Shown here piece after piece: positions 48,907-55,288 of a stretch of DNA of 64,000 nt. The translations under genes were made by a program, and so were the position numbers. Origin of the DNA: Marinirhabdus gelatinilytica (GTDB lineage: Bacteria > Bacteroidota > Bacteroidia > Flavobacteriales > Flavobacteriaceae). A model generated the notes under the pieces. That model was not told the DNA's origin. It did no database searches and worked only from the letters and a program-made list of their open reading frames with translations. Location of the stretch: assembly GCF_003353425.1 (NCBI RefSeq), contig NZ_QRAO01000002.1, forward strand, positions 46,454-110,453, written 5' to 3'. Within the stretch, counting starts at the first letter, position 1, and the number at the start of each line of letters is the position of its first letter.

Positions 48907-49461
48907 TTACAAAATGGTTTCATTGGTTTGTAAATGTGCTTTTATCTTTTTAACCGCAATATGGTAGCTGCTCTTTAGCCCGCCTACCGTGGTATCCAAA
49001 ATATCTGAGAGCTCTTCGTAGGTATGCTCTTCAAAATATTTCATATTAAAAATGAGTTGCTGCTTCTCCGGCAACGTGGCAATGGCCTTTTGTAATTGTA
49101 ATTGTATGGCATCGCCTTCAAAATATACATCGGTCTCCAGGCGTTCCAGGGTTTGTTGTTGTAATTCTTCGCTTGTTATGCCCTGTCTCTTGGCTCGCTT
49201 CTTTATATAGGTAATAGCTTCGTTTGTGGCAATGCGGTACAGCCACGTATACAATTTGCTATCACCCTTAAATTTATCAATATTTCTGAAGACCTTTATA
49301 AAGGTATTTTGTAGTACATCGTCTGCGTCGTCGTGGGATTTTACGATATTCCGTATATGCCAGTACAATCGTTCTTTATAGGTAGATACCAATATCCTGA
49401 ACGCTTCTTCTTTTTCTGAAGGCGCTTGTAGTAACTCAACGAGTTCTTTTTCTTGAACCAC
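48907..49461 (-). CDS. ECF-type RNA polymerase sigma factor
   Basis: The 184-residue product has sigma-70 region 2 (about 20-90: YKERLYWHIRNIVKSHDDADDVLQNTFIKVFRNIDKF...LYTWLYRIATNEAITYIKK) and region 4.2 (about 125-180: IATLPEKQQLIFNMKYFEEHTYEELSDILDTTVGGLKSSYHIAVKKIKAHL). Regions 1, 3 and the 1.1 extension are missing, as in ECF factors. The start is GTG at 49459-49461. It is the first gene of sigma-antisigma-Spy-like, probably one operon. Its regulon is not evident. Confidence 0.93.
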   Translation of the reverse strand: MVQEKELVELLQAPSEKEEAFRILVSTYKERLYWHIRNIVKSHDDADDVLQNTFIKVFRNIDKFKGDSKLYTWLYRIATNEAITYIKKRAKRQGITSEELQQQTLERLETDVYFEGDAIQLQLQKAIATLPEKQQLIFNMKYFEEHTYEELSDILDTTVGGLKSSYHIAVKKIKAHLQTNETIL

Positions 49462-49539
49462 TAGCTAGTATTTAATTTAAATATAGGACTTTTGATTTCA
49501 TAAATGGTTTAACCTTATGACAATACGCTTATTGATTTT

Positions 49540-49570
49540 CGATAAAAAACAAAAATATCCGATAAAATGC
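49540..49570 (+). repeat. Direct repeat, copy 1, upstream of small-RNA unit 1
   Basis: A 31-bp tract (starting CGATAAAAAACA, ending GATAAAATGC) matches 49765-49796 with few differences. It marks the left end of a tandem ~230-bp unit. Confidence 0.6.
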
Positions 49571-49614
49571 TTAAAAATTTTATTTTGTAGGAAAAAAGGA
49601 TTACTTTTACTCCA

Positions 49615-49706
49615 TACTACTTATGTATAGTTCGTCATTATTAGCCCCAAGCGTAATGCGAGCACACTAAAAACGGGTCTTAGCGGGGGCTGACCCGTTT
49701 TTTTAT
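49615..49706 (+). ncRNA. Candidate small RNA, tandem unit 1
   Basis: There is no coding frame here. The unit has TAnnTTTA at 49602-49609, then TTATGTATAG, a weak hairpin (CATTA/TAATG) with AGCCCCAA in its loop (49643-49650), and a strong terminator: AAAAACGGGTC (49669-49679) pairs with GACCCGTTTTT (49692-49702), followed by more T. The 12-nt terminator loop contains GGGGGCT, complementary to the AGCCCC of the first loop. No + strand gene follows for 5.6 kb, so it is not a leader. Confidence 0.5.
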
Positions 49707-49764
49707 TTCCTTAAAATTAAAATAAATTTTTGTAGGAATAAAAACTGCAAAAACAACTAAACAT

Positions 49765-49796
49765 CGATAAAAAGCAATATATATTCGATTAAATGC
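49765..49796 (+). repeat. Direct repeat, copy 2, upstream of small-RNA unit 2
   Basis: This matches 49540-49570 (CGATAAAAAGCA...CGATTAAATGC), 225 bp downstream of copy 1, consistent with duplication of the whole unit. Confidence 0.6.
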
Positions 49797-49840
49797 AATT
49801 TTTTTTTGGAGTTTCCAAAAATCCGTTTATATTTACATCA

Positions 49841-49930
49841 TAATTAATTACTTATGTAAGTATAGTGTCGCGAGCCCCAAATGTGGCACTATAACATTAA
49901 AAGAGAGCGGAGCCCCAACCGCTCTTTTTT
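49841..49930 (+). ncRNA. Candidate small RNA, tandem unit 2
   Basis: The layout matches unit 1 at a spacing of 230-232 bp: TTTG at 49805-49808, 19 bp, TATATTTA at 49828-49835; then ACTTATGTA, a 9-bp hairpin (TATAGTGTC at 49861-49869 with GGCACTATA at 49885-49893) with AGCCCCAA in the loop, and a terminator (AGAGCGG at 49904-49910 with CCGCTCT at 49919-49925, then T). The terminator loop is again AGCCCCAA. Primary sequence differs from unit 1 outside these blocks. Confidence 0.5.
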
Positions 49931-49967
49931 TATGCCAAAAATATAACGAGTACGTTTGGTGAGTACC

Positions 49968-51794
49968 CTATTCGAAACTCTGCATTTCTACGAGGCTATG
50001 ATATACGCCTTCTTTGGCGAGTAGTTCTTCATGTTTCCCTTTTTCTACAATTTCTCCTTTGTTCAGGACCACAATGGTATCTGCATTTTGTATGGTGGAG
50101 AGCCTATGGGCAATTACCACAGAGGTGCGGTGCTGCATCATTTTTTCAAGGGCATCCTGTACCAGGCGCTCGCTTTCGGTATCCAGGGCAGAGGTGGCCT
50201 CGTCCAGCACCATAATGGGTGGATTTTTTAGCACGGCTCGGGCAATGCTAAGGCGTTGTTTCTGGCCGCCACTCAACTTATTTCCTCCATCACCTATGTT
50301 GGTGTCAAGGCCCGCGGGAAGTTGTTTTATAAATTCGTAGGAATTACTAATCTCGGCGGCTTCTTTTAGTTCCTCATTAGACGCTGTGGGCTTTCCCAAT
50401 TTTAAATTATTGGCTACCGTATCGTTGAAAAGGATAGAGTCCTGCGATACAATTCCCATAAGGCCTCGCAAGGATTCTTTGGATATGTTTCGAATATCCA
50501 CCCCGTCTATCTCTATGCTTCCTTCGTTCACGTCGTAAAAACGTGTCAACAAATTGGCTATGGTACTCTTGCCGCTACCGGATTGTCCAACGAGCGCCAC
50601 GGTTTTTCCTTTCGGGATTTCCAATGAGAAGTTTTTCAATACGTATTGGTCCTCATATTTAAAGGAAATATTCTTTATACTAATGGAAGCGTCGAATTCC
50701 TTTTTGTGAACTGGGTTTTCAATATCTGTAATAGTATTTTCGGCTTCCAAGAGTTCGAGGATCCGGTGTGCAGAACCATCGGCACGTTTGACCGAATAGC
50801 TCGCTTTTGCAATGGCTTTCGCCGGGGTTAAAATATTGTAGGCTAGCATAATGTATCCTAAAAAGAAACTGGCTTCCAACGTGCTGTCCACAAATACCAA
50901 ATAACCGCCGTATACCAAGAGGATACCAATAGTAATAATCCCCAGTAGCTCACTTAATGGGGAGGCCAAATTCTGGCGGTTCATCACGCTATTGGAATAT
51001 TTATAAAACCGCTGGTTACTGTCCTCGAATTTATTCTGAAATATTCGCTCTGCATGGAAGGCTTTAATAATGCGCAACCCACCCATGGTTTCTTCCAGAA
51101 TGGAGAGAAAGGTTCCTTGTTCCTGTTGTACCTTTAATGAGCCTTTTTTCAACGATTTACCCACCCGAGAAATCAAAAAACCGGATATGGGCAAAAAGAT
51201 GAATACGAAGAGCGTAAGTTTCGGGCTAATAAAAAGCATGGTGATCAATGAGAACAGAATGGTCAACGGTTCGCGAACTATCATTTCCAGTACGGAGAGC
51301 ACCGAATTTTTCACTTCGTCCACATCGCCACTCAGCCTCGAAATGGTGTCGCCTTTCCGCTTTTCAGAATAAAAAGCCAGGGGAAACGAAATCACCTTAC
51401 TGTACAGATCGTTACGGAGATCCCTAAGGACACCGTTACGCATAAAGGTAGAATAGAACATCGCAAGGTAATTGCTCAAATTCTTAAGCAGAAATAGTAA
51501 AATGATAATCCCTACCATATACATAAGCACCTTGAACTCACCGTATTTGTTGATGTTTTCAATAATAAAATAGTTGAGGTATTCCTGCGAATAGTCCTTC
51601 ACGTTGGAAAACCCTTCGTAAACGGGTTCCTTTACTGGGGTACGTTCCTTGCTGAAGATAATTTCGAGCACAGGAATAAGTGCCACGAAAGAAAGGGTGC
51701 TAAACAGCGCATACAATACGTTGAAGAAAATGTTGAGAAACGCAAATTTCTTGTACGGATAGGCGTAGCGCAGTATTTTTTTGAAATAGTTCAT
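49968..51794 (-). CDS. MsbA-like ABC exporter (fused permease-ATPase)
   Basis: The 608-residue half-transporter has an N-terminal exporter-type transmembrane domain with six segments (about 20-330) and a C-terminal ATPase: Walker A VALVGQSGSGKST, signature KLSGGQKQRLSIARA, Walker B IMVLDEATSALD and the His-loop VVIAHRLST. It probably flips lipid A core, another lipid-linked glycan, or a drug across the inner membrane; the neighbouring phosphosugar mutase and glycosyltransferase support an envelope role. Its ATG follows the pgm stop directly (TAG-ATG), so the two are probably co-transcribed. Confidence 0.9.
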   Translation of the reverse strand: MNYFKKILRYAYPYKKFAFLNIFFNVLYALFSTLSFVALIPVLEIIFSKERTPVKEPVYEGFSNVKDYSQEYLNYFIIENINKYGEFKVLMYMVGIIILLFLLKNLSNYLAMFYSTFMRNGVLRDLRNDLYSKVISFPLAFYSEKRKGDTISRLSGDVDEVKNSVLSVLEMIVREPLTILFSLITMLFISPKLTLFVFIFLPISGFLISRVGKSLKKGSLKVQQEQGTFLSILEETMGGLRIIKAFHAERIFQNKFEDSNQRFYKYSNSVMNRQNLASPLSELLGIITIGILLVYGGYLVFVDSTLEASFFLGYIMLAYNILTPAKAIAKASYSVKRADGSAHRILELLEAENTITDIENPVHKKEFDASISIKNISFKYEDQYVLKNFSLEIPKGKTVALVGQSGSGKSTIANLLTRFYDVNEGSIEIDGVDIRNISKESLRGLMGIVSQDSILFNDTVANNLKLGKPTASNEELKEAAEISNSYEFIKQLPAGLDTNIGDGGNKLSGGQKQRLSIARAVLKNPPIMVLDEATSALDTESERLVQDALEKMMQHRTSVVIAHRLSTIQNADTIVVLNKGEIVEKGKHEELLAKEGVYHSLVEMQSFE

Positions 51795-55210: not shown

Positions 55211-55288
55211 AACAATTGTTACACGCCACCAACAAAACACTATTTTTGTTGTGGAATATATAAAACTCCAAAAAAATAAATTTTTGTA

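Follow-up and report, generated by a model that had tools for sequence, protein, structure and literature searches.

The window, a 64,000-nucleotide stretch of the Marinirhabdus gelatinilytica genome (contig NZ_QRAO01000002.1, positions 46,454 to 110,453), carries two tandem units on the plus strand between the genes of an ECF sigma factor and an ABC transporter (Table 1). A first-pass annotation had described this interval as a duplicated small-RNA locus, and all of the landmarks it named were recovered: they follow the same order in both units at a spacing of 225–230 bp, a 5' ACTTATGTA is present in both, AGCCCCAA occupies the loop of both first hairpins and recurs in the second loop of unit 2, and a TAnnTTTA box precedes each unit. 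The 31-bp repeat reported upstream of both units does recur, but resolves into a pair of 11-bp boxes instead of one repeat. The absence of plus-strand genes over 5.6 kb also held, the next plus-strand ORF starting at 55251. A small ORF inside the RNAs was considered and rejected; in unit 2 of the window the AUG of ACTTATGTAA stands directly before a stop codon (AUG-UAA). With a predicted promoter and intrinsic terminator of its own, and without a conserved ORF, each unit has the general make-up of a trans-acting sRNA.

Table 1. Features of the tandem small-RNA locus (window coordinates; limits of the two units are approximate).
Feature	Position	Strand	Remarks
ECF sigma factor gene, divergent neighbour	48907..49461	-	synteny conserved
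Paired 11-bp boxes, unit 1	49540..49570	+	CGATAAAAAAC, CGATAAAATGC, 20 bp apart; operator-like
-7 promoter box, unit 1	49602..49609	+	TACTTTTA
Small RNA unit 1 (putative)	49614..49706	+	start inferred from -7 box, end from T run
Hairpin 1 of unit 1	49630..49663	+	loop AGCCCCAA at 49643-49650; covariation
Terminator of unit 1	49669..49702	+	near-invariant loop GCGGGGGC at 49683-49690
Paired boxes, unit 2	49765..49796	+	CGATAAAAAGC, CGATTAAATGC, 21 bp apart
-7 promoter box, unit 2	49828..49835	+	TATATTTA
Small RNA unit 2 (putative)	49840..49932	+	ends inferred
Hairpin 1 of unit 2	49861..49893	+	loop GAGCCCCAAAT, with AGCCCCAA at 49873-49880
Terminator of unit 2	49899..49930	+	second AGCCCCAA at 49911-49918, in loop
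ABC transporter gene (membrane + ATPase domains), convergent neighbour	49968..51794	-	synteny conserved

Each unit consists of two hairpins, and the folds exceeded those of dinucleotide shuffles (z = -3.6 for unit 1 and -6.5 for unit 2). The unit 2 terminator is also terminator-like on the minus strand, in the sense of the convergent ABC gene. Hairpin 1 was aligned across 36 distinct sequences anchored on CCCCAA in one register. Changes on both sides were found at 8 of 8 pairs (100 cells), and standard pairs made up 96.2%, a percentage favoured, more than the number of compensatory-type changes, by admitting sequences because they pair in register. The covariation score was reached by none of 500 shuffles, and sliding the partner register lowered pairing to 30–63%. 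Selection on structure, suggested earlier from the divergence between the two units alone, is thus borne out by compensatory changes in relatives, a pattern shared with structured sRNAs in general. When the register was chosen by Watson-Crick pairs only, the stems contained 64 G-U against 4 A-C combinations, and hence the plus strand is the RNA strand. CCCCAA or CCCAA occurs in both loop 1 and the terminator loop of the same RNA in 43 of 89 units.

The distribution of the units was followed across the Flavobacteriaceae using the boxes combined with CCCCAA, a pattern present in 58 of 199 family genomes (57 of 198 genera; reversed control, 0), and using 80 named loci gathered by aligning the ECF sigma protein. 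CCCCAA lies in the ABC-ECF intergenic region at 46 of these 80 loci and further upstream at two more (about 48/80); within the ABC-ECF regions (<700 bp) it was found 60 times on the RNA strand versus once on the other. Both units are kept in three genomes of the same genus and one of another. Genera with two units include Altibacter and Aureisphaera, while Winogradskyella, Algibacter and Christiangramia have a single one; Aureisphaera galaxeae and Halomarinibacterium sedimenti are two-unit species that can be cultured. On the ECF tree, loci with a G-rich unit 1 make up 12 of the 14 rows of one clade (support 97/93) and single units 36 of the 38 rows of another, and Maribacter, Flagellimonas, Kordia and their kin (29 rows) are without the RNA; judged from these genomes, the locus is doubled in one clade of the family. 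At three loci (L155, L161 and L166) the related RNA is longer and has an extra CCCCAA module after a U-rich 5' stretch. No Rfam 15 family matched anywhere in the window at its gathering score, and a search of 49450-49970 up to E = 10 returned only chance-level matches at E >= 1. The comparison with Flavo-1 proposed in the first-pass annotation came to nothing, as Flavo-1 was not among these matches. We consider it very probable that the units belong to an sRNA family conserved in Flavobacteriaceae, many marine members among them, and not in Rfam.

The boxes follow the consensus CGATNAAANRC and occur as one pair, 20–21 bp apart, 5' of each unit; the paired pattern has 27 matches in 60 genomes and its reverse none. 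Among 54 units of relatives, for which CCCCAA and a T run were the sole selection criteria, the box pair was present in 37, always starting 98–106 nt 5' of CCCCAA (reversed, 0), and TAnnTTT[GA] stood at the right place in 48 (reversed motif, 11). The sigma-A -7 consensus is TAnnTTTG (PMC9723704), and the -7 box of unit 2 in genome G016 is a perfect TATATTTG. By its sequence the locus encodes two structured RNAs of roughly 90 nt, each apparently with a sigma-A type promoter and operator-like boxes, and likely forming a co-regulated sRNA pair. Two further elements were noticed in these regions. TTTTGTAGGAA occurs at 49584-49595, 3' of the unit 1 boxes, at 49729-49740, 5' of the unit 2 boxes, and again in the promoter of the CAP gene discussed below. 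The sigma gene has a probable autoregulated ECF promoter, TTAAAC(C/T)-N16-GTC, at 49487-49512 on the minus strand; its strict form, TTAAACC-N16-GTC, is found at this gene in 38 of the 80 relatives with a spacing of always 16 (reversed control, 0), and most of the remainder have TTAAACT.

A candidate for the protein that binds the boxes is suggested by the LytTR regulator YpdB of E. coli, whose operator consists of GGCATTTCAT in direct repeat (PMC4847170). The reverse complement of the box, GYNTTTNATCG, has in its commonest form (GCATTTCATCG) the core GCATTTCAT that is common to both, and the boxes are likewise direct repeats, here at a spacing of 20–21 bp. The boxes are putative LytTR/YpdB-type operators; they lie in flavobacterial promoters, and the binding protein is only a candidate. 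The genome encodes 10 LytTR proteins, all of them from genes without a box pair nearby. An autoregulated LytTR gene as the owner of the boxes was hinted at in L014 and dropped, the two boxes there being ~80 bp apart. Paired boxes also adjoin other genes (in L031, L051, L052, L033, L034, L038, L040, L041 and L054), among them genes for a YraN-like protein and an alpha/beta hydrolase, and are found where CoA-transferase and ABC ATPase genes converge; these occurrences may represent a wider regulon of the box regulator.

Unit 1 differs from unit 2 in its terminator loop, where the first-pass annotation had correctly located GGGGGCT (49685-49691) and its complementarity to the C-rich loops. Using a strict pattern, GCGGGGGC within a terminator-type stem was found in 15 of 199 genomes (control, 0), G144 having GCGGGGGTT as its unit 1 loop, and the surrounding stem covaries (CGGGCC/GGCCCG, CGGACC/GGTCCG, CGGGTC/GACCCG). 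In six relatives (L058, L062, L064, G066, G090 and G100) the unit's own CCCCAA loop (AGCCCCAA) has been lost or changed and GCGGGGGC or GTGGGGGC is kept, and so the G-rich loop is not kept for the sake of its own hairpin 1. Of the kissing interactions envisaged earlier, pairing with unit 2 thus stands as possible, but pairing within unit 1 does not stand as the selected function. The best candidate partners of the unit 1 loop would be the loops of unit 2 and the mRNA leader of a CAP-domain lipoprotein.

The CAP-domain lipoprotein gene (G000:C1:545447-545947; PF00188, E = 3e-15) matches the two units in the type of its -7 element and of its boxes, the second box being degenerate in G000 and perfect in G001. 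Its leader is CATCATGCCCCAAATTTGATGTCCCCCGTATTATG, the site adjoining the start codon is GCCCCAAATTTGATGYCCCCCG-n-ATG, and the pattern GCCCCAAATTTGATG(C/T)CCCC(C)G is nearly invariant in the leaders of 16 of 199 genomes (a 17th match, in G102, was discarded as not being a CAP gene). The GCCCCAAAT of this leader is that of the unit 2 loop, and the second of its runs of C, located a few nt 5' of the AUG, is complementary to the unit 1 loop. Between 6 and 8 consecutive pairs could be formed in all 18 of the unit-1 genomes checked, the pairing being held by G-U in G140 and G144, where the C run is shorter. Among the 199 genomes, all 13 leaders with CCCCCG were found in genomes with unit 1, and in G187 and G193, where the leader is present and a unit 1 match absent, CCCCAA is at that site. 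The hypergeometric probability of this co-occurrence (1e-18) stems from a single clade; since unit 1 and the leader are confined to one ECF clade, it counts as roughly a single event and a few losses, not as 13 independent events. Duplex energies were -15 to -17 kcal/mol with the CAP leader, -12.6 and -13.8 kcal/mol with the loops of unit 2, and -15.0 kcal/mol with loop 1 of unit 1 itself, so that the leader fits the unit 1 loop at least as well as unit 2 does. A C run and a G run will pair easily whatever the reason for either, however; the CG extension is broken in G090 (CCCCCCAAA), and a 3-bp mini-stem in the unit 1 loop must open to expose all eight bases. We give the predicted pairing of unit 1 with the CAP leader an even chance.

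Leaders of CAP-domain lipoprotein genes are conserved more widely (G000:C1:545414-545450; L327-L351), often with two or three boxes. In distant genera, where the boxes are also often present, the CAP leaders run CCAAATCTAAA...CTTAACCTATG; they have CCAAATC and CTTAACCTATG or ACCTACTTATG, and all three motifs recur in single-unit sRNAs.

From these features we infer a mechanism in which a LytTR-type (YpdB-like) regulator would drive transcription of both units as well as of the CAP lipoprotein gene bearing the same boxes. Unit 1 would be a trans-acting RNA whose G-rich terminator loop (GCGGGGGC) forms 6–8 pairs with the C run shortly preceding the AUG of the CAP mRNA and blocks, or otherwise resets, translation of that mRNA. 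The loops of unit 2, which share GCCCCAAAU with the mRNA leader, could compete for unit 1 as a decoy, a role that we find doubtful, and/or unit 2 may act via its C-rich loops on an older partner of the single-copy family. For the proposed mechanism as a whole we estimate a probability of roughly 45%. In its most elaborate form, one regulator would govern a circuit of three RNAs, namely a lipoprotein mRNA whose leader forms a C-rich hairpin, unit 2 as a mimic of that leader, and the complementary sister unit 1. One duplicate would then antagonise both its sibling and the look-alike mRNA with its terminator loop as the pairing site, an antisense RNA and its decoy being produced by adjacent units with one type of promoter; we regard this complete circuit as unlikely.

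The units could instead be classical antisense sRNAs whose CCCCAA loops pair with UUGGGG near the starts of many mRNAs, as is the case for sX13 (PMC3771888) and LhrC (PMC4132741), and conservation within the family is indeed highest in the exposed C-rich loop. Targets were sought in stretches of contig C1 totalling 1.26 Mb. TTGGGG near starts was in excess in the first 464 kb (381 genes; 11 versus a permutation mean of 3.4), but this excess was not replicated in the second 800 kb (678 genes; 7 versus about 7), and TTGGGGC-n-ATGAAR was no commoner than TTGGGGC beside a nonsense partner. Within this sample the null result for UUGGGG argues against a large regulon while leaving room for single targets, and we find this explanation unlikely. 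Another reading dispenses with antisense pairing: an RNA-binding protein or leader-binding factor would read the CCCCAA loops and C-rich leaders, and the sRNAs, with two or three loops each, would titrate it. CsrB and RsmZ titrate CsrA in this manner through GGA loops, and we know of no protein that recognises CCCCAA loops. The co-regulated CAP leader carries the motif of the sRNA itself and not its complement, the motif is repeated per RNA (in the 43 two-loop units and the extra modules above), and ACCUACUU(AUG)/CUUAACCUA is also common to sRNA 5' ends and CAP leaders in other genera; a motif-reading protein with sRNA decoys was retained as a rival on account of this common vocabulary. Such a protein would leave the GCGGGGGC loop of unit 1 unexplained, however, and CCCCAA was not clearly enriched over permutations in the gene leaders of this genome, and we hold the idea to be improbable. 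Leaders with CCCCAA and ACCTAC before ATGAAR numbered 15 against 9 in the control, which is not significant. Several of these precede genes for secreted proteins, and in other genera the leaders of large secreted proteins (L287, L289, L279 and L277) have CCCCAA and ACCTAC just 5' of the start codon.

Pairing between the two units, as GGGGGC/AGCCCC kissing in cis or trans, might be the main function in itself. The 6-bp complementarity is perfect (-12.6 to -15 kcal/mol), and CCCC is present in both unit 2 loops at most two-unit loci. The decay of the loop of unit 1, the lack of CCCC in the unit 2 terminator loop of G140, and flanks of the unit 2 loops that do not covary with unit 1 all weigh against it, as does the CAP leader, which it does not explain, and together they make it distinctly improbable. 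That the hairpins serve only as read-through terminators for the minus-strand ABC gene, or belong to the leader of the ECF sigma gene, and that no plus-strand RNA exists, is scarcely credible. The unit 2 terminator does score on the minus strand too, but the boxes and -7 elements face right, a separate conserved promoter further on serves the sigma gene, and both the G-U asymmetry and the 60:1 strand bias of CCCCAA favour the plus strand. Landmarks, folding and relatives thus all point to a tandem plus-strand small-RNA locus, as was first proposed from the letters of the sequence.

Among known systems, the units resemble sX13 of Xanthomonas, which has three C-rich loops and 4G targets and is short and Hfq-independent, with an unstructured 5' end and stable stems bearing apical CCCC loops (PMC3771888). 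CCCC lies in apical loops here as well; unlike sX13, no enrichment of GGGG near start codons was found in the 1.26 Mb sample, and the phylum, promoter and copy number differ, with no Rfam homology. LhrC1-5 of Listeria is encoded in five copies under two-component control, with redundant CU-rich sites (PMC4132741). As at this locus, one sRNA is present in several copies and its pyrimidine-rich sites are redundant, whereas here the unit 1 loop is G-rich, the candidate partner site C-rich, and the regulator only a candidate. Compared by description only, Rfp18 of Flavobacterium psychrophilum is likewise a structured Flavobacteriaceae sRNA proposed to pair through a loop with secreted-protein mRNAs, but there it is the third stem-loop that is described as pairing with metalloprotease mRNAs (PMC9723704), and the units here have two. 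Flavo-1 is also an RNA motif of flavobacteria, without a match here even at E up to 10. With CsrB and RsmZ the locus has in common one loop motif repeated in sRNA and mRNA leader; the motif is CCCCAA here and not GGA, with no cognate protein known to us.

To the best of our knowledge, characterised sRNAs are very few in Flavobacteriaceae. These bacteria are without the usual Shine-Dalgarno signals, so that the way in which their sRNAs act is the question at stake. The family described here covaries strongly, lies in known synteny, and comes with a candidate operator and one specific candidate mRNA partner in named genera. The match of the unit 1 G-rich loop to the start of a surface-protein message is a testable lead on a target of control and, if the pairing is true, would illustrate how one copy of a duplicated sRNA comes to oppose both the other copy and an mRNA under the same control.
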